Source: Pontibacter chinhatensis (lineage in GTDB: Bacteria; Bacteroidota; Bacteroidia; Cytophagales; Hymenobacteraceae). From it: a stretch of DNA of 64,000 nt. The notes beneath the pieces are model-generated. The model saw only the letters and a program-made list of their open reading frames with translations, searched no databases and had not been told where the DNA came from. A program made the position numbers and the translations under genes. The DNA lies in contig NZ_FOOT01000001.1 in the NCBI RefSeq assembly GCF_900113285.1, positions 682,001 through 746,000 of the forward strand, in the 5' to 3' direction. This document shows positions 2,012-63,459 of the stretch, one piece after another. How positions within the stretch are numbered: position 1 is the first letter of the stretch; every line of letters starts with the position of its first letter.

Positions 2012-2537
2012 CTTGTAATTATGAAAAGTTGTAAAAGGAAAGAATTGCTTAATATTCAAATATAACGGATTATTCTCACTTTTTTAGCCTGCCAGTGCAA
2101 TTAGATACAAGTCTATTTCAGAACCGGTCCGAAGTATAGGATTATAACCTTCTATTTAAGAAAGGTTTGCTTTGCCACAGGTGACGCAACATATTGAAGT
2201 AAAAGCTTGGGAGAAAGAAAATTACAATTTCTGCGGCACTTCAATGATGGTAGCAGTGGCCTATTTGGTATCACCCGATATACCTCCACATATTATGCTA
2301 CAGGCGGCAGTCAGCTATTCATCATCACTTTTATACCCTTCACACCGTGAGCATCTACTGAAACAAAATAAAGCAAAATTTGAGCTTCCTTAAATGCAAT
2401 TATTCACATATAAAACGTACACATTTCAAGTAAGCAATTGTATCCCAGCAGCTTCCATGACTTCTGTTCCACTACCAGAAGCTTCTCTTTGCTACGCATG
2501 CTTTATTTAATTGTACAATCTTAAACCTACCACGCAC
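2012..2537. other. Intergenic region, no confident gene
   Basis: This 526-base AT-rich stretch separates the RsbQ-like gene from the large exported protein. A 73-codon reading frame with a TTG/GTG start (about 2172-2393, plus) is present but has no recognisable domain and no convincing start. One AAGTATA heptamer lies at 2132. No terminator hairpin was seen. Confidence 0.5.
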
Positions 2538-5500
2538 ATGAAAACAAAACTACTTTACTGCCTTTGGCTATTCTTGTTAACCTTAAGTATGAAAGCAGAG
2601 GCGCAGCAGCCCGTTGAGGAATGGATCAGAACATATGATAGTTCCGGACCAACGGGAGACAAACCTGGATATACTCAAACTATCGTTACAGACAATGAAG
2701 GCAATAGCTATGTCAGTGGCACCGCCACCAACAACAATACATACGAAAGTAAAGTTGTGACTTTTAAGCTTTCTCCGACAGGGGAAGAACTATGGGTACA
2801 GGAATACGCAAAAGGATCTTTTAGTGAAACTAGAGGCATTGTGGTAGATAATAAAGGCGGCGTATATGTGGCTACTGGCGATGCGATAGTCCGTTACGAC
2901 ACACAAACTGGTGCAGAAAGTTGGGATAACGCTACAGGTATTCGCGCTACAGACATCGCTGTCGACAACCAAGGGAGCGTCTACATCACCGGCAATACCT
3001 CCATCAGTACAGAGAGCCCCAATTATGCTACCATCCGTTATGATGCCACTACCGGAAATGAGATTTGGTCCAGTACCTACAACGGGGAGAACGATGACAC
3101 GGACTTTGCGACAGCCATTGCCGTTGATAACCAGGGCGGCGTTTATGTGACCGGTGTAAGCTACACGGGAGATTTTGGCGCCGATTACGTCACTGTTCGC
3201 TATGATGCTGCTACCGGCAAACAGGACTGGGTGAGCCGCTACAGCATGGGGGGCTTCTTCGGGGAGCCGTTCATCGATGCCGATAACCAGGGCAGCGTCT
3301 TTATAACCGGTACCACCTACAATGGCACGACGGGGTATGATATCGCCACTGTCCGCTACAGTGCTACCACCGGAGAACAGTTGTGGGCCAGCCAGCACAA
3401 TAATGCCGATAACGGCTACGACTGGGCAACCGCTATTGCCGTCGACAACCAAGGGAGCGTGTATGTTACTGGGTATAGCGGCAGCACCTACAACAATTCA
3501 GATTTCACCACTATCAGGTATGATGTTGCCACCGGAGAGCAGAAATGGCTTCGTTACTATAATAAAGAGGACAATAGTCGGGATCAGCCTGCGGGCATCG
3601 CCGTAGATAACCAAGGAGGCATTTTTGTTACCGGTACCAGCCAAACCGGGGAAACCACCCACGTATTTACCACCATTCGCTATGAGGCAGACACAGGTAA
3701 TCTAAAATGGGTCAGTTCTTACGGAGAAAAAGACGAAGGCTGGGCTGAGGCAAGGGGCATTGCCATCGATAATAAAGGAGGCGTGTTTGTGACCGGGTTC
3801 TACCCTGCCAGAGAAACAGGCCCCGACATTGTGGTTATCCGCTATGAAGCTACTACCGGCGAAAAAGATTGGGAGCAGCGGTATAATGGCTTTGGAAGTC
3901 AAAGCGACTATGGAATTGCTGTTGCCGTAGATGCTGCCGGGAATGCTTATGTAACCGGCACGAATGACAACCACAACTACAACGTAGGTAAAGCCGACTT
4001 TGTCACCATCAAGTATTCCCCTACAGGAGAGGCGCTTTGGGTCAGTGTATATGATAGAGGCTTCAATAGTCATGTAAGCGGCATCGCCGTTGATGACGAA
4101 GGAGGTGTTTTTGTGACGGGAAGCAGCGATGGGGACTACGTCACTATCCGCTACGACGCCTCTACCGGCAACACGGATTGGGAGAAACGCTATAACGGGG
4201 AGTACAACGGCTGGGATAATGCTGCAGGACTAGCTCTAGACGGGAAAGGAGGCCTCTACGTAACTGGTAGTAGCGAAACAGGGGAAAACACCTCTACTTA
4301 CGTTACCATCCGCTACGATGCAGCAACCGGGCAGCAGCAATGGGTCTCATCCTTCCATGGAGAAAGCAATAACGACAATCTTGCAGAAGCCATTGCGGTT
4401 GACAGCACAGGGGGCGTCTATGTGACGGGAAATAGCGCAGGCGACTACCTTACCGTCCGTTACGACGCAGCTACAGGCACGCAGGCATGGGCCAGAACCT
4501 TCAACGGGGAGGCCGATGGACAGGAATGGGTTTCAGACATTGCTGTCGATAATCAGGGAAGTGTCTACGTTATTGGCTACAGCAGAGGCATCCATACTTA
4601 TGCGGATTATGCAACGGTAAGCTATGATGCGGCAACCGGGCAGCAGCAATGGGTGAGCCGGTATGATGCCGGCAGGGATGGCTATGATTACCCAGCAGCC
4701 ATAGCGGTCGACAATCACGGCGGCGTATACGTTACCGGGCGCAGCCAAAGTATAGGGGGCGAAGAAGTGGATTTTGCGTATGATGTTATCACCGTCGGTT
4801 ACGAAGCTGCCACTGGAGAGCAGAAATGGGTTGCCCGGTATGATGGTAATGGCTTAGATTTTGCAACCGCCATTGCTGTGGACAACGCAGGGGGCGTCTA
4901 TGTGACCGGCCACAGCGAAACATCTTCGGGAGGAGCGTTTAACACGATAAAGTATAAGGCTGAAGACGGCACCCAGGTATGGGCTATCCAGACAGAAGAA
5001 GGTGAGATAGATGACACTGCCAGGGACCTGGCCTTAGACACTGAAGGCAATGTCTTCGTTACCGGCTACAGCTTCCGTCCAGGAACTGGGGCTGACATCC
5101 TCACCGTCAAATACAGCCAGGGCCAATGCGCAGTACTGGCTGATGCGGCCATCCAGGGCAGTACAACAGCTGCCGTGAACACCGGAAATGCTATTTACAC
5201 CCTCACCGGCTCCAACGCCACCAGTTATACCTGGCGCATCACCGGCTCCAGCGGCAATGACTACACAGGCTTCACCGGACAGGGCACTTCCTCCATCTCG
5301 GTTGACTGGCCCGCTACGCCAGATGTGTACAAACTGAGTATCAGCTACAGCTCCGGCGCGGGCTGCCCTGCCCAAGACACTACGATCTATGTGCATGTAT
5401 TCAACCCGCAGGCTGGCTTTGTCACCGGCAGCGGCTGGCTCACCACACCTGCCAACCCGGATTTTGAACTCATGCAAGCCAGCAGCAGGGTTCAATGGGC

Positions 5501-6638: not shown

Positions 6639-9600
6639 ATGAAATTAACACAAGTCCGCTCCACCCCGCTTTATTACCTGTATCGATTCGGCTTATTCCT
6701 GTTTATTCTTTGCCTGGCGGCGTGCCGCAGCAACAGCGACGAACTGCGGCTGCAAAGTAAAAACTTCGAACAGGAAATTGCCCGGGAGCAGAACCTGGTG
6801 TTTACCTTTGATAAAGATTTAGTGGGCGACTCGCTACTGAACAGATGGGACACGATTCCCTACCTGACCATCACGCCCAAGGTGGCCGGCAAGTATAAAT
6901 GGACAGCTCCGAACGAACTGGTTTTCTCGCCGGACAAGTCCTTTGCCCCTACCACTGACTACAAGGCTGAACTGACCGAAAACCTGCTCCGGCACGCCGC
7001 CACCAAGTATAAAATCCCTGCCGGACAAGGCTTCACTTTCCATACCCCTTACCTCCGGCTGCAACAGGTGAAAAGCTATTGGGTAGCCAACGAGAACAGT
7101 CCGAACCAGCTGGAGGCCAGCCTACAGCTCGACTTTAACTATCCGGTGCTTTTTCAGGAGCTTCGGGAGCATTTAAAAGTATATGCCGGCACCAAAGAAC
7201 TGCCCGTAGAGCTGACCAGCGGCAACCGCGACAACATCACGATAAGGGTAAAGAATGTGGAGGGGCAACAGGACAAGGAAATTCCGCTGCGTCTAAGTAT
7301 AGCCAAGGGCCTGAGCGTGGCCGGCAGTACCAACCAGTCCGACCAGACCATCCAGCGGGATGTGTTGCTACCCAGCCGCCAGCGCATGATGGTAGCAGAA
7401 GTGCTTACGGCTTTAGAAGAAGGGCAGGAGCGCATTTACATCCTCACCACACAACCTGTTACCAACAGCAACATTGGCAACTTAATTGAAGTGAGTCCAA
7501 GACGGGAGTATACCGTGGAGCGCCTGCAGAATGGCCTGGTGCTGAAAGGAAATTTCAACCAGAGCAGCACCTATACCCTCACCCTATCGGGCGACCTGAT
7601 GGGGATGGAGGGCAAACCGATGGGCCGGCCTTACCGGCATAGCGTGACCTTTGCCAGCGCACAACCCGGCATCAGTTTCGCCAGCGGCAAGAGCATTTAC
7701 CTCAGCAGCCAGGGGGCACGGAATCTCGCCCTAAACTTGAACCAGGTGCCGCGCATTAAGGTAAGCATCAGCAAAGTATACGAAAACAACATTTTGCACT
7801 ACCTGCGCGAGGGCAAAATGTACGACGGCTATTACGACGAGGAGACCGAGGAATACTATTCCAGTTCCTACTACGACGTGAACGAGAACAACGGCAACAC
7901 GCTTTTCGAGCGCGAGTACAGCACCGAAAGCCTGCGCAAGCAGGGCAGTTCCTACCTGCTCAACCTTAACCTGAACGACCTTGATTTCGACAGCCAGTTC
8001 AAGGGTTTGTACGTCATCACCGTGGCCAGCACCGACAAAAACTGGCTGAAGGATTCCAGAATCGTATCGGTGTCGGACATCGGTCTGATTGCCAAACAGG
8101 GCAAAAATGAAGTGGTCGTGTTTGCCAATTCCATCCGGGAGGCGACGACTATGGAAGGTGTGGAGATTCGCTTCATCAGCACGAACAACCAAGTGGTGCA
8201 CCTAGCCACGACGGATAAGGACGGGGTCGCCCGGTTCAGCAACATAAGCCAGGCAGCGCCGGACTTCAAGATGGGGATGATTACGGCCCGCAAAGGTGAT
8301 GATTTTAACTACATGCCTTACAGCCAGACGCAGGTAAACACCTCCCGTTTCGAGGTGGGTGGCAAGCGGCTGAACGACCTGAATTATGACGCCTTTATTT
8401 ACGGTGACCGCGACCTCTACCGTCCCGGCGACACAATTCACGTCAACACCGTGGTGCGTACGCCGGACTGGAAAACGGTGGCCGGATTGCCTGTTAAAGT
8501 GAAGCTGCTCTTGCCCAACGGCAAAGAGTACCGCAGCACCAAAGGCAAACTGAACAAGCAGGGCGCCAGCGAGACCAGTTTTATTCTGAATGGAGCGGCC
8601 GTGACAGGCACCTATACCTTGGAAGTATATTCGGGCAACGATGTGTTGCTGAGCGCCAAAAAAATCGGTGTGGAAGAGTTTATGCCCGACCGCCTGAAGG
8701 TGACAGCTACGCTGAACAAAAGCACTTATAACGCCGGCGAGAAGCTGGTGCTGAATCTGACAGCCCAAAACCTCTTCGGTCCGCCCGCTGCCAAACGCAA
8801 CTACGAGGCCCAGCTAAGCCTGAAAAAGAAGACCTTCGAAGCCAAACGCTACGCCGACTATACCTTCGACATCCATACCTCCGGTTCCATCAACATCCAG
8901 ACCAGCACCCGCCAGGGAGAAACCGATGCGCAGGGCAAAGGACAGGAAGTGTTTGAACTGGAGAATTTCCAGGACATCGGTCTGCTGGACGGTTCACTTT
9001 ATACTACGGTGTTTGATGAAAGCGGTCGCCCGGTTAACCGCCTCAGCAAGTTTGATGTAAGCACGCAGCAGGCCTTCTTCGGCATCAAAAATTTTGATGA
9101 TTACGTGAGCACCCGCCGTGCGATGAACATCCCACTGATTGCCCTGGACCGTAACGGCTCGCCTGTTTCCACCACCGCCCGCGTGCAGCTGGTGCGCTAT
9201 ACCTACGAGTCGGTGATAGAGCGCTACAGCGACGAGTATAACTATAAATCGCAGCGCAAAGAGAACGTTATCAGCAGCCAAACTTTAGCCATACCTGCCA
9301 CCGGCGCTACGTTCAATTTCACGCCAGTATCGTCTGGCGAGTATGAAATAAGGGTGATGCGCCCGGGCGCCTACAACTACGTGGCGCAGGAATTCTACGC
9401 CTACGGTTGGGGCGACACCGAAAGTACTTCCTTTGCCGTGAACACAGAAGGCGAAGTGGACATCTCGCTGGACAAAGAAAAGTATGAAGTAGGCGAGCAG
9501 GCCAAGGTGCTGTTTAAGTCTCCGTTTGCCGGAAAGATTCTAGTAACAGTGGAGCAGAACAATGTGCTCAGCTACTATTACCTCAAAACCGACAAGAAAG

Positions 9601-12074
9601 CCGCTTCGCTCACCTTGCCTATCAAAGACGAGCACCTGCCCACGGCCTACATCACGGCCATCGCGCTGCGCCAGGTAAAGGACAACCAGATGCCGCTGAC
9701 CATCGCCCGAGGTTTCAAGCCTTTGACCGTTACCAAAAAGAGTACGAAATTGGACGTGGCCATACTTGCCCCGGAGGCTTCCCGCTCCAGCCGCGTACAG
9801 CAGGTGAAGGTTAAAACCGCCCCGAATGCGGAAGTGACGCTGGCCGTGGTAGATGAAGGCATCCTGCAGATAAAGGATTACCAGACACCTGACCCGCATG
9901 GATTCTTTTACCAGAAGCGCGCGCTGGAGGTGACCGGCTATGACCTCTACCCCTACCTGTTTCCCGAGATAGGCAACCGTTCCAGCACGGGCGGCGACGG
10001 CTACGACCTGGCCAAGCGCATCAATCCGCTTACCAACAAGCGGGTAAAACTGGTGTCGCTGTGGAGTGGGCAGTTAAAGTCAAACAGCAACGGCGAGGCA
10101 ACAGTAAACGTGCGTATACCTGAGTTTTCGGGAGCGGTGCGCCTCATGGCCGTGGCTTACAAGGACAATGCTTTTGGCTCTTCTGAAAAGATGATGCGCG
10201 TGTCGGACCCGGTTGTGGTTAGCACAGCGCTCCCTCGCTTCGTGAGTCCACGCGATACGATTCTGGTGCCGGTAACCCTGAGCAATACCACCGCCAACAA
10301 AGCCACAGCCGCCAGCACCATCACGGTGACAGGTCCCTTGCGTGTAGTGGGCGAAATCAAGAAATCAGCAAGTATAAATCCGAATGCGGAAGCGCAGGTT
10401 ACTTATAAACTCGTAGCAACACCAGCTATTGGACAAGCAACAGTAAAGGTCGCGGTGAATGCGCTGAACGAGCAATTTGTGAGTAATACCGATATCACCG
10501 TTCGCCCTATCGCCCCGCTAACCAAAGTAACGGAGGCTGGAAGTATAAAAGACGGCGCCACGGCCGACATCAAACTGGCCAACGACTTCATCCCTTCTTC
10601 GGTATCGGCCAAGCTGGTGATAAGCCGCTCACCCTTGGCGCAGTTTACGGATGATATTACCTTCCTCTTGCGCTATCCGCACGGTTGCCTGGAACAGACG
10701 ACCTCCACCGCTTTTCCGCTTTTATACTATACCGATTTGGCCCGCTCCCTGAACCAGGACCAGAAAGGCCGCACGTTTAACCCGAACTACCTGGTGCAGG
10801 AGGCCATCACCAAAATTGAGCTGATGCAGCAGTACGACGGTGGCTTTACCTACTGGCCGGGCGCTACCTACACTGACTGGTGGAGCAGCACCTACGCCAC
10901 GCACTTCTTGCTCGAGGCCAAAAAGGCTGGCTACCCGGTTACGCAGGAGGTGCTGGACAAGGCCTTGCGCTACCTGCAGCAAAAAGTAAAAGGCAAGGCC
11001 CTGGAAGAATACCGCTACTACGACGCCAAGCGCCAGGTGCAGAGCAAGTACATTGCCGCCCGCGAAACGACTTACTCGCTGTATGTGCTCAGCATCGCCG
11101 GTCAGGTGGACTGGTCTACCATGAACTACTATAAGGCCAAGCCGGAACTGCTGTCGCTGGATGCGCGCTACCTGCTGGCCAGCACCTATGCCCTGAACGG
11201 CAGTCGCGAGAGCTTTAACCAGATTCTGCCCCGCTCCTTCTTCGGCGAAACCTCGGTACGCGCCCTGGGCGGCAGCTTCTACTCTCCGCTCCGCGACATG
11301 GCGATTTCGCTGAACAGCTTAATAGAAGCGGACCTGGACAACCCGCAGATTGGCACCATGGCGCGGCATTTATCAGATGAACTGCGCTCCAAGCGCTGGT
11401 ACAACACCCAAGAACGGGCCTTTGCGCTGATGGCGTTGGGCAAGCTGTCGAGCCAGAACCAGGGCAACCAAACCGCGCAGGTATACCAGAACGGTAAGCA
11501 AATCGGCACTTTCACCGGCAAGGACCTGACCTTAACGAGCAACATCGGCAGCGGCCCTATCAGCATTCGCGGCAAGGGCAACGGCAGCCTGTATTATTTC
11601 TGGGAACTGGAAGGCATTAGTCAGAGTGGCGATGTAAAGCGCGAAGACAACTACCTGAAAGTGCGCAAAACCTTCTTCGACCGAAATGGCAAAGAAATTA
11701 CCGACAACACCTTTAAGCAGAATGATTTGGTAATCGTGCGGGTAGAGCTGCAATCGCAGGATGGCCGAAGTATACCCAACGTGGCCATCACCGACATGCT
11801 GCCAGCCGGCTTTGAGATAGAAAACCCACGCCTGATGACTGCCCGCGAGTTTAGCTGGCTGGAGGCTCAAAAACCCGCCACACCAGATTACATCGACATC
11901 CGTGATGACAGAATCAATCTTTACGCCACCGCAAAACCGGAGCAGCAGTACTTCTTCTACCTAGTGCGTGCCGTCTCGAAAGGTGATTTTCAGTTAGGCC
12001 CGATTGGGGCGGATGCCATGTATAATGCGGAGTACCATAGTTACTCGGGGGGAGGCGTTGTGAGAGTTAAGTGA
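6639..12074 (+). CDS. Alpha-2-macroglobulin family lipoprotein (YfhM-like)
   Basis: 1811 residues. The N-terminus has a hydrophobic segment and lipobox LAAC (Cys29), so the protein is a lipid-anchored envelope protein. The order of MG domains, bait-like region and thiohelical domain follows bacterial alpha-2-macroglobulins; the thioester motif is intact as PHGCLEQTTS (Cys about 1350), and DLYRPGDTIHV marks the MG region of the family. These proteins trap foreign proteases that breach the envelope by covalent attachment through the thioester. PBP1C is encoded next, 413 bases downstream; this pairing is known in many Gram-negative bacteria and suggests coupling of protease defence with cell wall repair. 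At least seven AAGTATA heptamers lie inside the gene in several frames. Confidence 0.93.
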   Translation: MKLTQVRSTPLYYLYRFGLFLFILCLAACRSNSDELRLQSKNFEQEIAREQNLVFTFDKDLVGDSLLNRWDTIPYLTITPKVAGKYKWTAPNELVFSPDKSFAPTTDYKAELTENLLRHAATKYKIPAGQGFTFHTPYLRLQQVKSYWVANENSPNQLEASLQLDFNYPVLFQELREHLKVYAGTKELPVELTSGNRDNITIRVKNVEGQQDKEIPLRLSIAKGLSVAGSTNQSDQTIQRDVLLPSRQRMMVAEVLTALEEGQERIYILTTQPVTNSNIGNLIEVSPRREYTVERLQNGLVLKGNFNQSSTYTLTLSGDLMGMEGKPMGRPYRHSVTFASAQPGISFASGKSIYLSSQGARNLALNLNQVPRIKVSISKVYENNILHYLREGKMYDGYYDEETEEYYSSSYYDVNENNGNTLFEREYSTESLRKQGSSYLLNLNLNDLDFDSQFKGLYVITVASTDKNWLKDSRIVSVSDIGLIAKQGKNEVVVFANSIREATTMEGVEIRFISTNNQVVHLATTDKDGVARFSNISQAAPDFKMGMITARKGDDFNYMPYSQTQVNTSRFEVGGKRLNDLNYDAFIYGDRDLYRPGDTIHVNTVVRTPDWKTVAGLPVKVKLLLPNGKEYRSTKGKLNKQGASETSFILNGAAVTGTYTLEVYSGNDVLLSAKKIGVEEFMPDRLKVTATLNKSTYNAGEKLVLNLTAQNLFGPPAAKRNYEAQLSLKKKTFEAKRYADYTFDIHTSGSINIQTSTRQGETDAQGKGQEVFELENFQDIGLLDGSLYTTVFDESGRPVNRLSKFDVSTQQAFFGIKNFDDYVSTRRAMNIPLIALDRNGSPVSTTARVQLVRYTYESVIERYSDEYNYKSQRKENVISSQTLAIPATGATFNFTPVSSGEYEIRVMRPGAYNYVAQEFYAYGWGDTESTSFAVNTEGEVDISLDKEKYEVGEQAKVLFKSPFAGKILVTVEQNNVLSYYYLKTDKKAASLTLPIKDEHLPTAYITAIALRQVKDNQMPLTIARGFKPLTVTKKSTKLDVAILAPEASRSSRVQQVKVKTAPNAEVTLAVVDEGILQIKDYQTPDPHGFFYQKRALEVTGYDLYPYLFPEIGNRSSTGGDGYDLAKRINPLTNKRVKLVSLWSGQLKSNSNGEATVNVRIPEFSGAVRLMAVAYKDNAFGSSEKMMRVSDPVVVSTALPRFVSPRDTILVPVTLSNTTANKATAASTITVTGPLRVVGEIKKSASINPNAEAQVTYKLVATPAIGQATVKVAVNALNEQFVSNTDITVRPIAPLTKVTEAGSIKDGATADIKLANDFIPSSVSAKLVISRSPLAQFTDDITFLLRYPHGCLEQTTSTAFPLLYYTDLARSLNQDQKGRTFNPNYLVQEAITKIELMQQYDGGFTYWPGATYTDWWSSTYATHFLLEAKKAGYPVTQEVLDKALRYLQQKVKGKALEEYRYYDAKRQVQSKYIAARETTYSLYVLSIAGQVDWSTMNYYKAKPELLSLDARYLLASTYALNGSRESFNQILPRSFFGETSVRALGGSFYSPLRDMAISLNSLIEADLDNPQIGTMARHLSDELRSKRWYNTQERAFALMALGKLSSQNQGNQTAQVYQNGKQIGTFTGKDLTLTSNIGSGPISIRGKGNGSLYYFWELEGISQSGDVKREDNYLKVRKTFFDRNGKEITDNTFKQNDLVIVRVELQSQDGRSIPNVAITDMLPAGFEIENPRLMTAREFSWLEAQKPATPDYIDIRDDRINLYATAKPEQQYFFYLVRAVSKGDFQLGPIGADAMYNAEYHSYSGGGVVRVK

Positions 12075-12487
12075 GTTTAGGGGTTTAGGAGTTAGAGAGT
12101 TTAGGAATGGATTCGTAGGGACAGGTCGCGACCTGTCCGAATCGTGCACGATTGACACACCCCTGCCCCTCTCGAGAGGGGAATCTCTGCCTCTAACTAT
12201 TTACAGGTAAAAGCATTGTAGCATATGAACCTCTGGCAGATATAGCAAGACAAACTTACACTTAAACTCTGAAACAGATAGCGGTGCCAGGCGCGCCAAA
12301 ATATTACCCCTGCTCTTTCGGATTTGTAATCCGAAAGTAGGTTAACAGCGGATTTGCAATCCGCAACCGCAAAGGCAGTAGCTACTGGTGGAGCGGCGGA
12401 TTACAAATCCGCACTTCCCAAAGCTCCGGATTGCAAATCCGGAGCAGCGTAGCAGAAGTCCTTAGGAAAACAGCAATTAAAACCTAC
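12075..12487. repeat. Palindrome-rich intergenic repeat cluster
   Basis: Between alpha-2-macroglobulin and PBP1C genes. From left to right: the perfect palindrome GGACAGGTCGCGACCTGTCC (12119-12138), AATCGTGCACGATT (12140-12153), CCCCTCTCGAGAGGGG (12166-12181), then four hairpins with related cores: 12315-12337 (GGATTTGTAATCC core), 12348-12364 (GCGGATTTGCAATCCGC), 12396-12412 (GCGGATTACAAATCCGC) and 12423-12445 (GGATTGCAAATCC core). The first palindrome recurs at 26823 and 33330. The hairpin type with a TTGCAA/TTACAA/TTGTAA centre recurs at about 27.3 and 62.0 kb. They look like REP-type elements. Confidence 0.85.
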
Positions 12488-14836
12488 ATGCCAACACAAA
12501 AGCCAAAGTATAACCCAAGCCAGCGGCTGCTAAGGTATAGCAAGCCCTGTCTCAGGTATACTTTATACATTGGGTTGATGCTTTGCCTTGCCTTTGCCAT
12601 TCTCAACCACCTCTACCCACTTAAAATAAATATTTCCTACTCCCCCGTCATCACGGCTTCCGATGGCAGCATTATTAATGCCTTTTTGAGCCGGGACGAT
12701 AAGTGGCGGATGCAGTTGGAGCCAGATGAACTGAGCCCTGTTCTGAAGAAGGCGGTGCTGCTGAAAGAGGATAAGTACTTTTACTACCACCCGGGCATTA
12801 ACCCCTTTGCCATTGCCAGAGCTTTTGCGAACAACGTCTTTCAAAATAAAAAAACCTCCGGTGCCTCGACCATTACCATGCAGGTGGCCCGGCTGCTTTA
12901 CCCGCAGCAGCGCACCTATGCCAACAAGCTAACTGAAATGTTCCGGGCGATGCAATTGGAGTGGCATTACAGCAAAGACGAAATCCTGCAGCTATACCTG
13001 AACCTGGTGCCTTTCGGTGGTAACATTGAAGGCGTCAAGGCAGCCTCTGTTTTATACTTCCAGCAGTCGCCGAGGCAACTAAGTTTGGCGCAGGCGGTGA
13101 CGCTGACGGTTATACCTAACAAGCCCTCTTCGCTGCGGATTGGCGAGCAGAACGAGCGGATTGTGGCGTTTCGGAATAAATGGTTGAAATACTACCAGGA
13201 GCAAGGGGCATTTCCGGCTGCAGAGATTGAGGATGCTTTACTGGAGCCATTGGAAGCACGCAGGCAGGAAGCACCCAAAGTAGCGCCGCATTTTGCCTAC
13301 CGCATGTACCGCAAGTATAAAAACCAGTCCACTATTAAAACCACGCTGAACCGGCAGGTGCAGGAGAAAGTGGAGCAGCTGGCCTACAACTACATGCAAC
13401 GGCTGCGCTACCAAAACATTCACAACGCGGCCGTACTGGTCCTCAACAACCAAACCGGGGCGGTAGAGGCCTACCTGGGTTCTGCGGATTTCAATGATTT
13501 TGCGCACCACGGACAGGTCGACGGTGTGCGGGCCATTCGCTCGCCGGGCAGCACCCTGAAGCCGTTTCTTTATGCTACCGCTTTTGATAAAGGTATACTT
13601 ACGCCGAAAACCGTCATCACGGATGTGCCCGTGGATTATGCCGGGTATCGCCCGCAAAACTTCTTCGGCAACTACAACGGCAAAGTCACGATAGAACATG
13701 CGCTTGCCACTTCGTTCAACGTGCCCGCCGTGAAAGTGCTCGACCAACTCGGGGTTTATACTTTTGTGCAGAAGCTGAAGCAGGCAGAGTTTTCGCAGAT
13801 GAAGCAGATGGGTAACCAGCTTGGTCTCTCGCTGATTTTGGGGGGATGCGATGTAAAGCTGGAGGAGCTGACCTTGCTGTACGCCGCCTTTGCCAACCAG
13901 GGCAGGTATAGCTCTATCCGCTGGCTGCAGCACGACACAACGCAAACGGAAACGCAGCTGCTTTCACCCGCATCAGCCTATATGGTGAGTCAGATTCTGA
14001 CGCAGCTCACGCGCCCCGACTTGCCGCACAACGCACATAACAGCCCGAACCTGCCCAAGATTGCCTGGAAAACCGGCACCTCCTATGGCCGCAAGGACGC
14101 CTGGAGCATCGGCTACAACAAGAAGTATACAGTAGGGGTCTGGGTCGGCAATTTCTCCGGCGAGGGCGTACCAGAACTCAACGGCACCGACTCAGCCACG
14201 CCCCTGCTCTTCGACATCTTCAACAGCATCGACTATAATTCCTCTGACGGGTGGTTCCAACAGCCCAAAGGCATTGGTTTAAGAGTGGTGTGCACCGAAA
14301 GCGGTAGCCCGGCCAACAGCTTCTGCAAAAACCAGGTGCTCGATACGTTTATACCCGGCATCTCCTACACGCAAAAGTGCAGCCATTTGAAGAGGATTGC
14401 CGTTTCCGTCGATAAAAAGTATAGCTATTGCACCAGTTGCCAGCCGGCGACAGGCTTTGTGCAGCAACTCTACCCCAACCACGCGCCGGAGCTGCTCACG
14501 TTTTACGATGCTGAGCGGATACCCTACCAACAGATTCCGGCGCACAACCCCACTTGCAGCCGCATCTTTAAAGAACATGCCCCGGTTATCGCGTCTCCGG
14601 CTTCCGGCATGGAGTATATTCTGGAACGGGAAGAACGCCAGCAACTGATGCTGCACAGCAACACCCACAACGAGGTGAAGCAGGTATACTGGTATATCAA
14701 CGATAAATTCCTGCGCGCCACTGCCGCCAACGAGAAGATGTTTTTTGAGCCACAGAGGCCCGGCAAGTATAAAATCTCCTGTACCGATGACCAGGGCCGG
14801 AATACGGATAGCTATATCACAGTCAGCTTTCTGTAA
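12488..14836 (+). CDS. pbpC: Penicillin-binding protein 1C, bifunctional glycosyltransferase/transpeptidase
   Basis: 782 residues from the ATG at 12488 (MPTQKPKYNP); an upstream in-frame start would run through the repeat cluster and is unlikely. One N-terminal membrane segment (LYIGLMLCLAFAIL). GT51 glycosyltransferase domain with KEDKYFYYHPGINP and GASTITMQVARL. Transpeptidase with SxxK in SPGSTLKPF (Ser355), and KTGTSYGRKDAW (Lys528). A C-terminal BiPBP-type domain follows (from about residue 690: HAPVIASPASG). The enzyme polymerises and cross-links peptidoglycan in the periplasm. Its place after the alpha-2-macroglobulin gene is the conserved arrangement. Six or more AAGTATA/TATACTT heptamers lie in the coding sequence. 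Confidence 0.93.
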   Translation: MPTQKPKYNPSQRLLRYSKPCLRYTLYIGLMLCLAFAILNHLYPLKINISYSPVITASDGSIINAFLSRDDKWRMQLEPDELSPVLKKAVLLKEDKYFYYHPGINPFAIARAFANNVFQNKKTSGASTITMQVARLLYPQQRTYANKLTEMFRAMQLEWHYSKDEILQLYLNLVPFGGNIEGVKAASVLYFQQSPRQLSLAQAVTLTVIPNKPSSLRIGEQNERIVAFRNKWLKYYQEQGAFPAAEIEDALLEPLEARRQEAPKVAPHFAYRMYRKYKNQSTIKTTLNRQVQEKVEQLAYNYMQRLRYQNIHNAAVLVLNNQTGAVEAYLGSADFNDFAHHGQVDGVRAIRSPGSTLKPFLYATAFDKGILTPKTVITDVPVDYAGYRPQNFFGNYNGKVTIEHALATSFNVPAVKVLDQLGVYTFVQKLKQAEFSQMKQMGNQLGLSLILGGCDVKLEELTLLYAAFANQGRYSSIRWLQHDTTQTETQLLSPASAYMVSQILTQLTRPDLPHNAHNSPNLPKIAWKTGTSYGRKDAWSIGYNKKYTVGVWVGNFSGEGVPELNGTDSATPLLFDIFNSIDYNSSDGWFQQPKGIGLRVVCTESGSPANSFCKNQVLDTFIPGISYTQKCSHLKRIAVSVDKKYSYCTSCQPATGFVQQLYPNHAPELLTFYDAERIPYQQIPAHNPTCSRIFKEHAPVIASPASGMEYILEREERQQLMLHSNTHNEVKQVYWYINDKFLRATAANEKMFFEPQRPGKYKISCTDDQGRNTDSYITVSFL

Positions 14837-14916
14837 AGTATAAGGACATCGATTTTTATACTTTGTCCGTGCGTGCTATTTCCCCTAAACACACCACAAA
14901 TGAAACTACTCCCACC

Positions 14917-21770: not shown

Positions 21771-22010
21771 AGGCTTAAAGTTTGGTAAGTCCTTAGCCTA
21801 AATTAACTCAAAAAATTCGGAGTTTTTGCAACGCCGCCTGCATAACCTGTAAATGAAAGTATAAATGAGTGATTGAAACGGGTGGATGAAGCTTTCAGAA
21901 CAGCCGCATCTATACTTGTGAAACCACCATACTTTGGCAACCTATACTTGCGGTATGGCAGCCAGGGAAAGTATAAAGTCGAGTGCCGGCCATTTATACT
22001 TTGGAAGAAT
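21771..22010. repeat. Cluster of five AAGTATA/TATACTT heptamers
   Basis: A 240-base gap between ppc and the hybrid kinase gene (both minus). Heptamers occur at about 21858, 21911, 21943, 21969 and 21995, alternating in orientation. The gap also holds the ppc promoter, which I could not place. Confidence 0.7.
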
Positions 22011-26718: not shown

Positions 26719-27340
26719 GTTTTAGTGCCGTCTCCAACCACCCCCTACCCCTCCTTGGCTAAGGCGGGGAGTCTGTAGTAGCTTTGGCTAAAGTATAAGT
26801 TGAATAGCCACGGTTCTCGCGCGGACAGGTCGCGACCTGTCCCTACAACGTATAAACCCACCCCAGCCCCTCCGAGGAGGGGAATTGTCTGCTAACGATT
26901 ACATCCCCCTACCCCCTTCAAAGGGGGACTTTGGCTGAAGTTGCATCAGTTGATGCTATCGAATGCTTCCCAGCCTTTGGGTTGAGCGCCTTCTAGATTT
27001 CCGGTGCCCGTCCAGGGCATTGCGACGTCAGGAGCAAAGGAAATGTAGACAGCGCGATGCCCTTATCGAGGGCCCCTACCCCCAAGGCGAGGCCTCCCGG
27101 CCTAGGAGGGAGCCAAACTGGAGATGAAACACTAGCTCATGTTAGGCTGGAGGATGAGCTGTGGTTTGGAAGTATAGCTTCGTTCAAGTGGATTGTAGCG
27201 ACGGCTATGAAAGTATAACCGGCAAGTATATATTGGGAAGTATAATAAGTATAGCCGAAGTGTGAGTATGGCTTTTCAAGCCAGTTGGGTTGCAAACCCA
27301 ACATCATAGTGAGGCACGGGTTACAAACCCGCGCCAGCGA
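26719..27340 (+). repeat. Composite dispersed repeat, copy A
   Basis: Non-coding element also found at 33221-33950 and 61583-62091. In order: CCAACCACCCCCTACCCCTCC with AAGGCGGGGA; palindrome GGACAGGTCGCGACCTGTCC (26823-26842); CCCACCCCAGCCCCTCC..GGAGGGGAATT; the structured core (26967-27130); a run of heptamers at 27171, 27211, 27226, 27237 and 27247; and paired hairpins TTGGGTTGCAAACCCAA (27285-27301) and CGGGTTACAAACCCG (27317-27331). Copy A differs from B and C by about 20 extra bases after GATGCCC in the core. It lies between convergent genes. Confidence 0.88.
26967..27130 (+). ncRNA. Putative structured RNA core, copy A
   Basis: Shares with copies B and C: hairpin CCCAGCCTTTGGG, long-range pairing of CTAGATTTC with GAAATGTAG and flanking GCGC with GCGC, an apical hairpin (here TGCCC/GGGCA) whose bases differ between copies but still pair, GGCCTCCC/GGGAGCC near the end, and terminal GAGATGAAAC. 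Transcription is not shown. Confidence 0.55.
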
Positions 27341-27471
27341 GAGGAATGGAAGTATAGCAATCAAAGTATAATTGCTGCTACTATTACTCCCTAAATCGGA
27401 TTTAGAGCAAAGGCTGCCCCTAAAAGCGCAGGAAAGCCTTTTTGCAGGCAGAAGGAAGCGAGTATGAACTG

Positions 27472-33410: not shown

Positions 33411-33516
33411 CTGTCATCTCGAGTACTCTTGAGGCGAGAGCCGAAAAGAGCCAGCGAAGCTGTGAGAGATCGACTTGGAATCCTATCCAGATCTCTCCCA
33501 TTGGTCGAGATGACAG
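33411..33516. repeat. Nested 106-bp inverted-repeat element
   Basis: Ends CTGTCATCTCGA (33411-33422) and TCGAGATGACAG (33505-33516) are perfect inverted repeats of 12 bp. No reading frame. It resembles in layout the TGTCAT...ATGACA element at 18856-18934, so the two may belong to one family of small palindromic insertions. Confidence 0.65.
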
Positions 33517-33539
33517 TAGTGGCAGCGGCTATCGAATGA

Positions 33540-33686: not shown

Positions 33687-34000
33687 GAGTCGCTTGTGTG
33701 AACTAAAGGATGAACGATGGCTTGAAAAGTATAGCTTGTGTCAAGTGGAAGGAAGCAGCGACTAGGGAAGTATAAACCAGCAAGTATAATGCGTACGGAC
33801 TCGGAAGTCCGCAGTAGCCCAGGTTCCAAACAAGGATGTCCGAAGCAGCGGCTATGAAAGTATAAAGTATAGGCTGGCAAGTATAAAAGTATAGCCGGAG
33901 TTAAAAATATGGCTCTGCGGGCCAGTTGGGTTAAAAAGCCGCGCCAGCGAAAGGGACATCTGAGCCAAGTAAGTATAGCCAAACTATACTTCTGCCATAC

Positions 34001-42300: not shown

Positions 42301-42405
42301 GTATGGATTTAAGAGCAGCGTAGGCAGTGATTCCGGATGATAGGAAGTATAGGAAAGTGCAGGGGTGCGCAGCAGCAGGCCAGGGTGAAATCTGAATGTA
42401 GCCAT
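39346..42405 (-). CDS. Full-length LanB-type lantibiotic dehydratase
   Basis: 1019 residues, the usual size of a complete LanB. The N-terminal part (FRFHPGLLLRTPALSY, NRMCFRPTPFGLFSGFALCSWG, PNPSLYKVPGGYRYIRF) is the tRNA-dependent glutamylation domain (Lant_dehydr_N). The C-terminal part (from about residue 735: EEWLYFKIYCHPSRANQLLA, TQWYFVRYRDPDYHLRLRLKV) is the SpaB_C/thiopeptide-type elimination domain. Together they convert Ser/Thr of a precursor to Dha/Dhb. No LanC, LanT or protease gene lies within 20 kb on either side. The 53-residue peptide on the same strand is the obvious substrate candidate. The gene carries at least nine internal heptamers. Confidence 0.92.
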   Translation of the reverse strand: MATFRFHPGLLLRTPALSYTSYHPESLPTLLLNPYFRAALRLASPALYQVVEGSNFTYEALAPKVKASLQKYLNRMCFRPTPFGLFSGFALCSWGTPEPLILQQEKSRAHLSLTFSCSKRLAAELLANELAPAQRFRPNPSLYKVPGGYRYIRFQEDATGSKREFSIDNLQGGRILERLLRVCSDGYTCQQLIGEVVKLADVEEAEAALYVEQLQSEQVLVPLSGMRVTGADSLSGLLEESKAQSIASPRVEQIGCLLSGLKKAGQVTQVSESALFEELPQEALADLAISPENDLQATLENTVQGTLETAYQAKLAEALDCLQRLVPAPEPTGLRAFANAFSKKFDQRAVPLLTALDPELGVGYEDLAVRHQAPRLLESIKLEEPPTTTQSLNWTPAHRLLLEKWQSAGAFPNELILSGDDLEQLPAAEEALLPPSFSVVFRPMGEEVYLEQAGGISATTLLGRFTPLHDGVRSMARDIAAAEEKYNPGVIFAEIGYYNNAHTANIDRREAVRSYEIPVLVPSAHPVEKQVQLSELWVMVEAGRIVLWSERLRKEVVPRLGSAYNYFRDDLAVFRFLCDLQYQGLRSNFTLELSHFFPGLTYYPRVRYKQSILHLACWHLQEKQLAAIFEKGEGSSLLRLKQLAESMHWPRHVALTQNDQQLVFDLEREANLCLLLESIKGKTSVQVREFPFTAAENQLVTDAVGQPYVHQFITAVYQERTVYQAQPLPILSASKRKSQKRTFAPGEEWLYFKIYCHPSRANQLLAHTLLPLCHKLQQAGAVTQWYFVRYRDPDYHLRLRLKVLSGAGQVMEQVSRKLSGSLRQGLLQDVQLAVYEQELERYGPELIETAEQVFWANSRWVGEYLRQVPFGEEEYAFYHMAFLGLEEVLEAFGFSAGEKETLLEQLYHTFYQEFGATKALRLSLAATYRELSQVPGILSDDGIKYSPPLKKQRKAHREALQMMAKLAEKLPFQRRQQLASDLMHMHLNRLLSDRSRQQELVIYFCYWKYCRSARARSTA

Positions 42406-43109: not shown

Positions 43110-43132
43110 AGTTTCTAGTTATTTAAGATGGT

Positions 43133-43688
<556 letters not shown>

Positions 43689-47034: not shown

Positions 47035-47175
47035 TACACTTCCACCATATTAGTATATCGCAATTAGTATATCGCAACTTAAACTCAGTAGGTAAACGAC
47101 AGGCATACCTAGGTTCGATTTGGACAGACAGCAAAACACGCTGAGTAACACCAAGCTAAACACAAACCCCAAACT

Positions 47176-55103: not shown

Positions 55104-55135
55104 GTGGAATAAAGTATAACCCAGTTGCCCAAAGC

Positions 55136-55173
55136 AAAAAAGCGGTGCAAGCCTTCCCCTGCACCGCTTTTTT
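55136..55173. terminator. Bidirectional terminator
   Basis: Perfect 14-bp stem AAAAAAGCGGTGCA / TGCACCGCTTTTTT with a 10-base loop, so T runs occur on both strands. It serves the helical-repeat gene (plus) and the ABC-F gene (minus). Confidence 0.9.
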
Positions 55174-55182
55174 AATTCCGGA

Positions 55183-55206
55183 TTTATACTTTCTGCAAAG
55201 TATAAA
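55183..55206. repeat. Inverted pair of heptamers forming a hairpin
   Basis: TTTATACTTT CTGC AAAGTATAAA, a perfect 10-bp stem made of two opposed copies of the heptamer, 4 bases after the ABC-F stop codon. Confidence 0.8.
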
Positions 55207-56962: not shown

Positions 56963-58345
56963 TTATTGATTCTGCATGATTCCTTTCATCCAGCTATCCA
57001 GCATCTCCACCAGCTCCGGGTTAAAATTATCGCGCACGTAGGCCTCAAAACCCCCGTTTTGCTGCAGCCGCATCAGGTCCTGCTTGGTTCCAACTTTGAT
57101 GAAGCCATGGTCGGTATCGGGAAGGAACTGATAGGCAGCTGAGCCCGGACGCATGGTGTTGAGCGCATTTACCAGCAGCTGCGAGTTATGCGGGCTGATG
57201 GAAGGCAGGTCTGCCCCGCCATAGATAATCAGCACGTTTGTATCGGCATCGCGCCAGGTTTTGTGATAGGGCACGTTCTGTATTTCCTGCATAAAGCGAT
57301 AATGGCGCCCGAAGACATGCCCCTTTCCATCGTACTCGAAGCTTTGCTCCAGGTGCTGTTTATACTTCGGATCCTGCGCCAGATCTTCCGCCGATTTCTT
57401 GCCGACGAGCAATTCGTATGTCAGCGGGCCCAACACCAGCATGTCCTCGTCAATCCGCACCGGGTCAAACCCTATCTCGGCACGCTGCTCCCGGAACACG
57501 TCCAGCATGTACTCATACCAGGGTTTACCGGCCACGCCATACCCGATGATGCCTTTCACCTTTGTATCGGCAGCGATAACAGGCGCTGTGTTGGCGCCGA
57601 GCGAGTGGCCGAATAGGAACACGTTGCCCGTATCCACGAAGTCATAGGTCTGTAGCTTTTTAAGGGCAACCGAGAAGGCAGCCAGTTCTTCTTCGTAGCC
57701 AATCTCGGTGCATGGTGCACTGCCCTGGCTGTCCCCCGCGCCGGGCTTGTCCATTTTGAAAACCGCATAACCTTTGGCCACCAGGCCATCCATCAACCGG
57801 CGCTGCGGGTCGTGCGGGGGCAGGTTATCGATGGAGCTACAGCCGTAGCCCTGCAGGAAGAAAACCGTGGGGTATTTGCCCTTACCTTTTGGCTTCTTTG
57901 CTATCAGGCGGGCGTAGCCGTGGTCTGTCTTCACTTCATCATAGAGCACCTCAGCAGCTGCATCCTCCTCGCGTGGCATTTCCTTCACCTTCCCTTTCAG
58001 CGTCAGTCGCTTCTTGTTCCGGATAACGCCAACCGTAACAGGCGCAGCAGTGGAGAAAGTACGGGCCTTGGCCACCACATCATTTGCCGTCCGGACAGCT
58101 TCCTTGTTGATGCTGACTATGACATCGTTTGGCTGAAGCTTGAGCGCGGCTGCCGTGCTGTTGGGAATAATGGCTACCACCATGGCTCCTGCGCCGTCCC
58201 CGAGCTGATTCACCGCTGCCAGGGAGTCAGAGACTGGCGCAATTTGCACCCCCAGAAAAGGGCGGCGCTTCAGGTGCTGGGCCTGTGCCGGAAAGGCCAG
58301 GGAACAGGCAAAAAAGACGAGAACTGAAAGTATACTTTTGCTCAT
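56963..58345 (-). CDS. Secreted PDZ-alpha/beta hydrolase
   Basis: 460 residues. Signal peptide (MSKSILSVLVFFACSLAFPA), PDZ domain (about 28-115: FLGVQIAPVSDSL, LKLQPNDVIVSIN) and alpha/beta hydrolase (about 140-455) with FFLQGYGCSSID, nucleophile GHSLGAN and a terminal PDTDHGFI. A periplasmic peptidase or esterase; the PDZ may recruit substrate proteins. Divergent from the M16 peptidase operon. Confidence 0.9.
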   Translation of the reverse strand: MSKSILSVLVFFACSLAFPAQAQHLKRRPFLGVQIAPVSDSLAAVNQLGDGAGAMVVAIIPNSTAAALKLQPNDVIVSINKEAVRTANDVVAKARTFSTAAPVTVGVIRNKKRLTLKGKVKEMPREEDAAAEVLYDEVKTDHGYARLIAKKPKGKGKYPTVFFLQGYGCSSIDNLPPHDPQRRLMDGLVAKGYAVFKMDKPGAGDSQGSAPCTEIGYEEELAAFSVALKKLQTYDFVDTGNVFLFGHSLGANTAPVIAADTKVKGIIGYGVAGKPWYEYMLDVFREQRAEIGFDPVRIDEDMLVLGPLTYELLVGKKSAEDLAQDPKYKQHLEQSFEYDGKGHVFGRHYRFMQEIQNVPYHKTWRDADTNVLIIYGGADLPSISPHNSQLLVNALNTMRPGSAAYQFLPDTDHGFIKVGTKQDLMRLQQNGGFEAYVRDNFNPELVEMLDSWMKGIMQNQ

Positions 58346-58538
58346 AGTTTAAATTGGTCAGGTTAAGCTATTCAAGACTAAGTTTATGTATGCGCAGGAG
58401 CTGGAAAAATAATTTTCAAGTATAACGTATCGTTCAGAAATTATTTTTAGATTAACTAATAATATTTTGCACTATACTGCGCAATAATCGTATAGTGCTA
58501 TATTTAATGCTGAAACCTAATCCTAACCAATTGTTCCT
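58346..58538. promoter_or_regulatory. Divergent promoter region with inverted repeat
   Basis: The perfect inverted repeat GCACTATAC/GTATAGTGC (58469-58477 and 58490-58498, 12-base spacer) lies 40 bases before the M16 start, just after ATATTTTG (near 58463-58470), a one-mismatch -7 box. It may be an operator or a leader hairpin of the M16 operon. Confidence 0.45.
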
Positions 58539-61409: not shown

Positions 61410-61427
61410 GTTTGTTTATACTTTCCA

Positions 61428-61478
61428 AATAATGCCAGTCCCCGGGAGTTTCTTCCGGGGACTGGCATTATTCTTTTA
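61428..61478 (+). terminator. Rho-independent terminator of the M16 operon
   Basis: Perfect 18-bp stem (61428-61445 with 61455-61472; inner part CCAGTCCCCGG/CCGGGGACTGG), 9-base loop and CTTTTAT. Confidence 0.9.
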
Positions 61479-61582
61479 TACTTTGTTTGGGGGGGCGCAT
61501 ACCCTTCGTGAGATTCTAGGAGAGGGACTTTTAGGTAAAGTATAAGTTGCCATAAGCGCTTTGCTCAAAATATACTATTGGA

Positions 61583-62091
61583 GTTTTGTAATTACCGGGC
61601 CCAACCACTCCTGCCCCTCCTTATCCAAGGCGGGGAGCCTGTGACTGCTGTTGTTAAAGTATAAGCTCCGTAGCAAACGGTATTGGGAGTTACACCCCTA
61701 TGGTCCCCTCAAGGGGACAGTCTGTATTCGTTCCATAGCAAAGGCTGTAGCTATCGAACCTGTTCCCAGCCTTTGGGTTGAGCGCCTTCTAGATTTCCGG
61801 TGCCGCTGTGGCGGCATTGCGACGTAGGAGCAAAGGAAATGTAGACAGCGCGATGCCCGAAGGCGAGGCCTCCCGGCCTTGAGGGAGCCAAGTAAGAGAT
61901 GAAACAATAGCTTATGTAAGTCTGGAGGATGAACGGGGGCTAGAAAGTATAGCTTGTGTCAGTTGAGGGAAGCGGCGGCTATGAAAGTATAAACCGACAA
62001 GTATAGCCGAAGTATAAGTATGGCTTTTCAAGCCAGTTGGGTTACAAACCCAACATCATAGGTAGGCACGAGTTGCAAACTCGCGCCAGCG
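61583..62091 (+). repeat. Composite dispersed repeat, copy C
   Basis: Left edge TTTTGTAATTACCGGG as in copy B. It lacks the 20-bp palindrome and the CCCACCCC block. Core at 61763-61905, heptamers at 61946, 61985, 61999 and 62009, and paired hairpins TTGGGTTACAAACCCAA (62037-62053) and CGAGTTGCAAACTCG (62069-62083). Compared with copy A, G:C pairs in the second hairpin are replaced by A:T pairs on both sides. Between convergent genes. Confidence 0.88.
61763..61905 (+). ncRNA. Putative structured RNA core, copy C
   Basis: Apical hairpin here is TGCCGC TGTG GCGGCA, different from A and B but fully paired. The shared stems and the terminal GAGATGAAAC are kept. Shortest of the three copies. Confidence 0.55.
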
Positions 62092-62205
62092 GGATGAGAA
62101 GCGGCGGGTATAAAGTATAAACAGAAGTTGCGGTAACAGTTCTTCCATACTTGAGGTAACTGCTACCGCACCTTCCACCTATCAATCTATACTTTAAACC
62201 CGGAG

Positions 62206-63414
62206 TTATACTTTCTCCAGCACCACGGCATACCCCTGCCCTACGCCTACACACATGGTAGCCAGGGCATAACGCTTATTGGTTCGCTGCAGAGAAAGAG
62301 CTGCACTGTGTACAATACGAGTGCCCGACATGCCGAGTGGGTGGCCGAGGGCAATGGCGCCACCATTTACGTTCACGCGCGGGTCCTCGTCCTCCAGACC
62401 TAAGGCACGGGTGCAGGCGAGGCTTTGGGCGGCGAAGGCCTCGTTCAACTCGATTATGTCCATGTCGTCCAGGCTGAGCCCTGCTCTTTCCAGCGCCTTT
62501 TGTGTGGCTGGTACCGGGCCGATGCCCATGATGCGCGGCTCCACTCCTACCACTGCCGAACTTACGATGCGGGCCAAGGGCTTAAGGCCATACTTCTCTA
62601 CCGCTTCCCCGGACACCACATAGGCAGCTGCGGCACCATCATTCAAACCCGAGGCATTGCCGGCAGTAACAGTACCATCAGCCTTAAAAGCCGGACGCAA
62701 TTTTGCCAAGGTTTCTACCGTGGTGTTGGGGCGGATAAACTCGTCTTCCGATACCACTACCGGATCGCCTTTGCGCTGGGGTATCGTTACAGGCATAATC
62801 TCCTCGGCCAGGATGCCGTTCTGCTGCGCCTGCGCTGCCTTGCGCTGCGAGTGGTAGGCAAACTTATCCTGGTCCTCACGGGAAATTTCATACTTCTCGG
62901 CCAGGTTTTCAGCGGTATTGCCCATGGGGTCCACGCCGTACATTTCTTTCATCTTCGGGTTGACGAAGCGCCAGCCGAAACTTGAATCATGCATCTGGGA
63001 ATCGGTGCCGAAGGCTTTGCTCGGCTTGGAAACGACCAGCGGGCCACGCGTCATGTGCTCCACGCCGCCCGCGATAAATACCTCCCCGTCACCGGCTTTA
63101 ATGGCACGCGCCGCGTTGATGATTGCGGACATGCCCGATGCGCAAAGGCGGTTAACCGTTTCGCCAGGCACGGAGGTTGGTAGCCCGGCCAGCAGCAACG
63201 CCATCCGGGCCACGTTGCGGTTGTCCTCGCCAGCCTGGTTGTGGCAGCCAAGTATAACGTCGTCCACTGCGTCCTGCGGGATGCCGGGGTTACGGCTTAC
63301 TAGTTCCCGGATGACCATGGCCGCCAGGTCGTCGGTGCGCACGGGGGAAAGTTTACCGCCAAAGCTTCCGATCGGAGTTCTTATTCCATCTATGATATAG
63401 GCTTCTTTGCTCAT
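62206..63414 (-). CDS. pcaF: Thiolase, probably 3-oxoadipyl-CoA thiolase
   Basis: 402 residues from the ATG at 63414 ([16 protein letters not shown]); the earlier start would add a poor stretch. Active-site Cys91 in [12 protein letters not shown], His in [17 protein letters not shown] and the second Cys in [35 protein letters not shown] favours the PcaF/PaaJ subgroup. It cleaves 3-oxoadipyl-CoA to succinyl-CoA and acetyl-CoA. The CoA-transferase subunit upstream supports this. The stop is built from AAAGTATAA. Confidence 0.85.
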
Positions 63415-63459
63415 ACTTATACTTTTATACTTTGTCGCGGCAGCCATACTTGCTGGCGG

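Follow-up and report, generated by a model that had tools for sequence, protein, structure and literature searches.

A highly iterated heptamer with clade-specific dialects in Pontibacter genomes, possibly acting like a DNA uptake sequence

Words that mark a genome as self throughout its length, and that come in dialects, have been documented mainly in two proteobacterial families, in which uptake is pilus-based, and in another form in cyanobacteria. In the Neisseriaceae, the dialects of the DNA uptake sequence (DUS) lie a few bases apart and follow phylogeny, S. muelleri carries two of them in near-equal numbers, five relatives are described as having no obvious DUS, and kingDUS reaches 5918 copies in 2.4 Mb (PMC3630211). 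The uptake signal sequences (USS) of the Pasteurellaceae are reported to be of clade-specific types that differ at few positions, to lie in both coding and non-coding DNA, and to have originated by substitution rather than insertion, with 1485 9-mers in the 2.3 Mb of M. succiniciproducens (PMC1626085). The cyanobacterial highly iterated palindrome HIP1 is a short, very dense word that spans a genus or clade, has alternates in certain lineages, and is infrequent in exceptional cases, and Chi is named in the same text as a class of over-represented short words (PMC4390886). Direct repeats of the heptamer TAACTGA are reported from Beggiatoaceae, Cyanobacteria, and five Bacteroidetes, in sets that in one strain lie mostly just upstream of start codons (PMC4679880). 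Here, we analyze the heptamer AAGTATA and its reverse complement TATACTT, which pervade a 64-kb stretch of the genome of Pontibacter chinhatensis (G000:C17:682001–746000, hereafter the window). We regard AAGTATA as a highly iterated self-recognition word of Pontibacter; the favored, though still tentative, reading is that it acts like a DNA uptake sequence.

Within the window, there are 144 exact copies, 80 of them AAGTATA (plus strand) and 64 TATACTT (minus strand), against expectations for the pair of 6.0 from base composition and 4.8, 8.9, and 23.5 from Markov models of orders 1, 2, and 3; the reversed word occurs 3 times, and AAGTATA/TATACTT ranks first among all 7-mer pairs of the window. 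The first-pass annotation of this sequence had estimated about 140 copies where fewer than about eight were expected by chance, in line with the exact count and the order-0 to order-2 expectations, and had placed them between 2132 and 63432, which are indeed the start of the first copy (2132–2138, plus strand) and the end of the last (63426–63432, minus strand). The pair is also the commonest across 464 kb of the window's contig, with 1065 copies (runner-up 715, median 48) versus 41, 76, and 195 expected at orders 1, 2 (trinucleotides), and 3, so the Markov check that the annotation had proposed speaks for enrichment. Because the models of orders 4 and 5, which expect 508 and 920 copies in the 464 kb, and the (k−2)-order test inside the window, which leaves a small excess (144 vs 126.5), are trained on sub-words of AAGTATA itself, they were set aside as uninformative and were not counted against the enrichment. 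Across the whole genome of 5,072,663 bp, 5623 and 6004 occurrences add up to 11,627, which is one copy per 436 bp and 32 times the number of the reversed word (360 copies). Over-representation of AAGTATA across the genome, in coding and non-coding DNA alike, is confirmed, as in words of the DUS and USS type.

The spelling of the word varies within the genus, and these dialects, which were absent from the first-pass annotation, are the most informative part of the analysis. Whole-genome counts in 50 Pontibacter genomes, with a threshold for a dense word that we chose as 0.75/kb, revealed a dense word in 39 genomes and none of three words in the other 11. The dialects are AAGTATA (19 genomes), AGGTATA (12), AACTATA (4), and AAGTATA together with AACTATA (4). 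AGGTATA is the commonest 7-mer in the named loci of five other Pontibacter, AACTATA dominates the sequence samples of G018, G031, and G044, and the combined total of the three words reaches 4.5/kb in one two-dialect genome; in 49 genomes from outside the genus, AAGTATA is at most approximately 2.5 times as frequent as the reversed word. When the dialects were mapped on a midpoint-rooted rpoB tree, the 12 AGGTATA genomes formed one side of a single branch (Shimodaira–Hasegawa-like approximate likelihood ratio test, 99), the four AACTATA genomes grouped with three of the four two-dialect genomes, and the state without any of the words required four changes, at least three of them on well supported branches. 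Clade-specific dialects that follow phylogeny, as known for DUS and USS, are thus present in this genus. The genomes classed as having none vary, in that G007 retains raised AAGTATA (0.59/kb) and G026 has just 0.14/kb. AACTATA is missing from one antisense frame of the coding sequences (0 of 179 coding copies in G031 and 0 of 173 in G038), because in that frame it would create a TAG stop.

Weaker enrichments were also noticed, of GGGTATA/GGTATAA in G037 (L155, L216, L217) and of CTATATA/TATATAA in G042 (L146–L148, L218), each of which may be a relic or a further dialect. Beyond Pontibacter, a 22.6-kb locus of Chitinophaga solisilvae (L062) contains an AATTACG-type heptamer in several rotations (AATTACGA, ATTCGTAA, and ATTACGAA, 32–34 copies), the similar counts of which look as if they came from tandem period-7 repeats. 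A 20-kb locus from another genus of the same family as Pontibacter (L212, G052) has 27 copies of ACCTAGG where 1.9 are expected, perhaps another iterated word, and a 22.5-kb locus of Adhaeribacter rhizoryzae (L042) has 64 copies of AAATATT/AATATTT where 19.6 are expected.

Comparisons across the dialect boundary indicate how one spelling gives way to another. Between G031, which carries AACTATA, and G033, which carries both words, at 83% identity, AACTATA sites had 46 partners with one mismatch, of which 20 were AAGTATA and the next commonest variants three each, even though C/G changes were the rarest class, at 6.4% of all substitutions. Between G038 and G033, AAGTATA was the partner in 15 of 40 cases, a comparison that is not independent because G038 is close to G031. 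In a same-dialect pair, the one with P. mucosus, AACTATA made up only 1 of 74 one-mismatch partners (p = 3 × 10^−9 vs 20/46). These alignments show that, between dialects, sites are respelled in place through C/G substitution.

The turnover of individual copies was examined against P. mucosus (genome G013, which we take to be that species), over 132.8 kb aligned at 90.4% identity, with eleven control words pooled. The phosphoenolpyruvate (PEP) carboxylase of the window is 98% identical to the P. mucosus homologue; a similar PEP carboxylase was matched in only 29 of the 50 genus genomes. Each kept site enters the counts twice, once from each side, for the word as well as the controls, and gapped comparisons are excluded (for the word, 2 in coding and 21 in intergenic DNA; for the controls, 2 and 9). 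On this basis, the word was kept exactly in 242 of 299 coding comparisons versus 108 of 186 for the controls (Fisher p = 8 × 10^−8) and in 236 of 282 intergenic comparisons versus 46 of 82 (Fisher p = 7 × 10^−7). Of the 126 non-identical comparisons, 74 differed by one substitution and 23 contained gaps, and the whole word was missing from the partner in only 2 of 604. Copies of AAGTATA therefore change mainly by substitution, not insertion, as is also the case for DUS- and USS-type words, and insertion of a 7-bp element was rejected as the main route. Within coding copies, 38 of 80 substitutions were nonsynonymous (42 synonymous), versus 2204 of 9123 elsewhere (6919 synonymous; p = 9 × 10^−6), which means that the pressure on the word reaches the protein sequence. 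At approximately 75% identity, few positions are shared (e.g., 4 of 31 with P. ruber); across this distance, the density of the word is maintained while its positions turn over. The five AGGTATA loci had too few sites aligned with the window's contig for comparison. One part of the P. mucosus genome is poor in the word, with gaps of 4.5, 4.9, and 7.9 kb (L180–L181, G013:C6, approximately 13.5–35.6 kb), and was perhaps acquired recently.

Density that persists while positions move is what would be seen if a nucleoid or chromosome-organizing protein bound the word and selection held its density, with the dialects following changes in the protein. The neutrality of the word with respect to orientation and its intergenic enrichment, often in tandem, also fit such a binding site. 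However, selection at every one of over 11,000 sites, strong enough to raise the nonsynonymous share, would in our judgment be unusual, and we consider this explanation unlikely.

The placement of the word was assessed on open reading frames (ORFs) from a simple calling script, whose gene boundaries are approximate. In the window, 78 copies are coding, 64 are intergenic, and 2 straddle a boundary; over the 464 kb, there are 5.78 copies per kb between genes and 1.40 per kb within them. The corresponding densities in P. mucosus are 5.31/kb and 1.40/kb, and rpoB of the 19 AAGTATA genomes has a lower density of 0.49/kb. Coding copies fall into all six phase classes (sense: 112, 60, and 102; antisense: 68, 89, and 94), and codon-usage expectations for the same classes (16.9, 5.8, and 1.7; 2.6, 8.7, and 4.2) are surpassed 6.6- to 60-fold in each, so codon usage was rejected as the cause. 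An RNA-level signal was likewise rejected, because gene-orientation bias is absent (274 sense vs 251 antisense copies). The six phases claimed by the first-pass annotation are all present within two ORFs of the window: ORF 6639–12074 contains plus-strand sense copies at codon offsets 0 (AAG TAT A, 6891–6897), 2 (xxA AGT ATA, 7295–7301), and 1 (xAA GTA TAx, 7774–7780), and ORF 12431–14836 contains minus-strand antisense copies at offsets 1 (xTA TAC TTx, 13053–13059), 2 (xxT ATA CTT, 13594–13600), and 0 (TAT ACT Txx, 13757–13763). Three of its six coordinates were right, and the other three were off by 1–3 bases, the true starts being 7774, 13053, and 13757. Its view that the underlying process acts on DNA rather than on protein is supported, given the six phases, the use of both strands and both gene orientations, and the margin over codon expectation.

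The two strands carry the word almost equally (527 vs 538) in the 464 kb, where 14 of 16 bins have a negative GC skew. The plus strand seemed to be in excess in one set of positions, which we take as an artefact of the places it includes, the whole-genome counts being balanced (1674 vs 1864). This bears on a possible role as a Chi-like recombination site for a nuclease of the AddAB/RecBCD type. Like AAGTATA, Chi sites are over-represented, short, and variable among lineages, but they are biased in orientation along the replichore, whereas no such bias appears in the counts above, the origin being unmapped, and the density of AAGTATA far exceeds that of known Chi sites. A Chi-like function is therefore highly improbable.

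Local repetition contributes to the pattern in intergenic DNA, where copies in the same orientation often lie 7, 11, or 14 bases apart (21, 14, and 15 pairs, respectively). Such spacings, a perfect tandem array of 6.3 TTATACT units at 43132–43175 (six copies of TATACTT, minus strand), and dispersed repeats rich in the word would suit an origin of the word in a mini-element that was copied or inserted, in tandem slippage, or in dispersed repeats, and these may add local arrays. Yet when DNA with matches elsewhere in the 464 kb is excluded, densities of 5.70/kb in intergenic and 1.41/kb in coding DNA persist, and repeats were rejected as the cause; together with the single substitutions that dominate the differences from P. 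mucosus and the near absence there of comparisons lacking the whole word, this makes copying or insertion an extremely improbable source of the word at large. The first-pass annotation's alternative of codon pairs or repeats alone accordingly does not account for the excess, and its suggestion of a copied mini-element is not supported, as copies differ mainly by substitution.

Further clusters occur along the window. Three copies lie around a gene end (14765–14863), and intergenic clusters comprise five copies in both orientations (21857–22001), seven in a single orientation (27170–27370, plus strand) within the dispersed repeat 26719–27371, nine (eight plus, one minus; 33727–33991) partly within the dispersed repeat 33217–33789, three at 55112–55204, and four at 61417–61663. 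Another three-copy cluster (58328–58424) includes two copies overlapping as AAGTATACTT, and a seven-copy cluster (five plus, two minus; 61945–62213) lies partly within the dispersed repeat 61690–62097. These three dispersed intergenic repeats are approximately 400–650 bp long and roughly 65–82% alike, and they recur in P. mucosus and in the 464 kb, with 20 intergenic intervals of ≥150 bp in the latter; in repeat-matching intergenic DNA, the word reaches 8.3 copies per kb. Elsewhere in the window, the 14-mer ATTAGTATATCGCA occurs in two perfect tandem copies (47049–47077), and a lantibiotic dehydratase-like protein (Lant_dehydr_N and Lant_dehydr_C; 39346–42405) suggests a lanthipeptide-type gene cluster.

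The word itself is sharply defined. Among its 21 one-mismatch variants in the 464 kb, AAGTATG alone is strongly enriched (352 vs 75 expected), and CATACTT/AAGTATG has 51 copies in the window, consistent with the earlier remark that CATACTT variants are common. The remaining 20 variants, of which a few reach roughly double the expectation, have 24 to 130 copies each (AACTATA, 85 vs 39; AATTATA, 81 vs 37; AAGTAGA, 78 vs 37). The flanks show a slight preference, in that A precedes the word, T is avoided directly after it (3%), and A is favored next; the coding copies taken alone show the same trend, and T at position 8 is avoided in all three dialects (3–5%). AAGTATA differs from its own reverse complement, and its core does not lie inside any dominant palindrome.

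This last feature matters for a HIP1-like explanation, in which biased mutation or repair, for example guided by a methyltransferase, creates and keeps the word and the dialects reflect changes in enzyme specificity. Density is likewise high for HIP1, which takes alternate forms in some species and is reported to be accompanied by methyltransferases (PMC4390886). Respelling in place and the nonsynonymous excess fit a mutational drive equally well, and genomes that have comEC and dprA without the word would pose no difficulty. However, AAGTATA is non-palindromic, and among the three methyltransferase families tested (PF01555, PF00145, and PF02384, with PF02086, PF07669, and others left out), none was convincingly common to all dense genomes. 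PF01555 was matched in 31 of the 50 genomes and is absent from that of the window, PF00145 was matched in 23, and the dense genome G049 lacks both; PF02384 was matched in all 50, yet only at E = 7 × 10^−5 and 1.5 × 10^−4 in the dense genomes G049 and G006. We consider a HIP1-like origin unlikely.

The sharp, orientation-neutral word, its dialects, the two-dialect genomes, the origin of copies by substitution, and the respelling of sites point to the sequence preference of a protein that would have been imposed on the genome. Of the roles listed in the first-pass annotation, only the mini-element drops out; the uptake-type, the protein-binding or chromosome-organizing, and the methylation-linked roles are retained, and the uptake-type role is favored because dialect switching and loss are documented hallmarks of uptake words, although no uptake has been observed. 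Much of this pattern would also result from a mutation or repair bias of the HIP1 kind or from a protein bound to the chromosome. Under this favored role, a DNA-binding protein would read the word, DNA bearing it would be preferentially taken up or recombined during natural transformation, and copies would spread through biased uptake and recombination. Existing sites would be respelled when the preference of the protein shifts and would decay when it is lost. The route would need to cross the outer membrane without type IV pili, as suggested for Riemerella, another member of the Bacteroidota. In a Riemerella transposon screen, ComEC, DprA, ComF, and RecA were recovered along with proteins that share no homology with known transformation machinery, and mutants with lowered transformation frequency included one in a SusC/RagA TonB-linked protein (PMC8459023); tonB mutants are also reported to transform less (PMC8383284).

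Several observations weigh against the uptake reading. Firstly, across the dialect boundary, the positions of AACTATA were kept no better than those of control words (90 of 212 vs 66 of 156). Secondly, genes without a syntenic match in P. mucosus have only slightly fewer copies per kb (1.02, from 27 in 26.5 kb) than genes with one (1.38, from 157 in 114.0 kb), as raw densities in the contig part from C17:652001 onward, with genes of 20–70% cover left out. Thirdly, opposite-orientation pairs show no peak, in contrast to DUS, and inverted-pair terminators were rejected on the same ground; the exception is the overlapping AAGTATACTT (raw counts of 7 intergenic and 12 coding). The larger size of the genomes without the words (mean 5.71 vs 4.59 Mb, p = 3.5 × 10^−6) speaks for the uptake reading, but the difference rests on three to four independent pairs. 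Also in its favor, comEC (PF03772, inner-membrane channel) and dprA (PF02481, processing of single-stranded DNA) were matched in all 50 genus genomes, but they are uninterrupted in all 11 word-free ones as well (707–736 and 374–385 amino acids, respectively), so word loss does not track loss of these genes, which is unsupported as its cause. Conversely, both genes are broken by stops or frame changes, where sequencing error is possible, in G022 (1.00/kb; L320, L321), the largest genome with the word, and in G009 (L322, L323), which carries AGGTATA at 2.02/kb. The search for a type IV pilus ATPase gave no convincing hit: matches to PF00437 were short and weak in all 50 genomes (up to 31 candidates scored per genome), the best scoring 25.9 bits over 60 of 370 positions and three genomes lying just above the cut-off of 24.9, whereas all 14 control genomes were matched. 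The known pilin receptors are thus probably unavailable, and a receptor of the type IV minor pilin kind, as in Neisseria, is unlikely. Among the candidates examined, neither a receptor nor a dialect-determining protein was identified, and the one open-licence paper found to mention both Pontibacter and natural transformation makes no link between them, so that competence of the genus is unproven. In the titles and beginnings of abstracts searched in the open-licence literature, with partial coverage that does not prove an absence of reports, AAGTATA is unreported as such a word. A more specific version of the uptake reading, which we put forward as a less secure conjecture, is a pilus-independent uptake-signal system of Pontibacter with at least three dialects and an as yet undescribed receptor in the outer membrane, which might be TonB-linked or SusC-like, as the Riemerella screens hint.

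Pontibacter adds a separate example from a different phylum, one that lacks a convincing type IV pilus ATPase and combines three spellings, genomes with two dialects, and several apparent losses within a genus that includes cultured strains. The respelling of a word across thousands of sites is directly testable in it, as is the question whether Bacteroidota choose their own DNA in transformation. We know of no earlier uptake-word system in Bacteroidota; if the uptake reading is true, this would be the first to our knowledge, and the two-dialect species would capture a change of password in progress.

Among the described systems, DUS and USS are the closest precedents. The Pontibacter word is like DUS in its thousands of copies, its dialects that lie a few bases apart and follow phylogeny, its two-dialect genomes and word-free relatives, and a density like that of kingDUS. 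DUS are 10–12 bp long, whereas the Pontibacter word comprises 7–8 bp, shows no peak of inverted pairs, belongs to another phylum, and is known here from sequence alone; a ComP-type receptor is also unlikely in Pontibacter, given the lack of a convincing type IV pilus ATPase. With USS, it shares clade-specific spellings, placement in coding and non-coding DNA, and an origin by substitution, but it is denser (11,627 copies in 5.07 Mb, as against the M. succiniciproducens figure given at the outset) and has a short flank preference in place of extended AT-rich flanks. HIP1 resembles it as a dense, short, clade-wide word with alternates and exceptions; however, HIPs are described as GC-rich palindromes with matching methyltransferases, whereas the Pontibacter word is AT-rich, non-palindromic, and unaccompanied by any one tested family. 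The TAACTGA sets have in common with it that they are heptamers, also occurring as direct repeats in some Bacteroidetes, but in Pontibacter single copies dominate, and they lie within genes in all phases.

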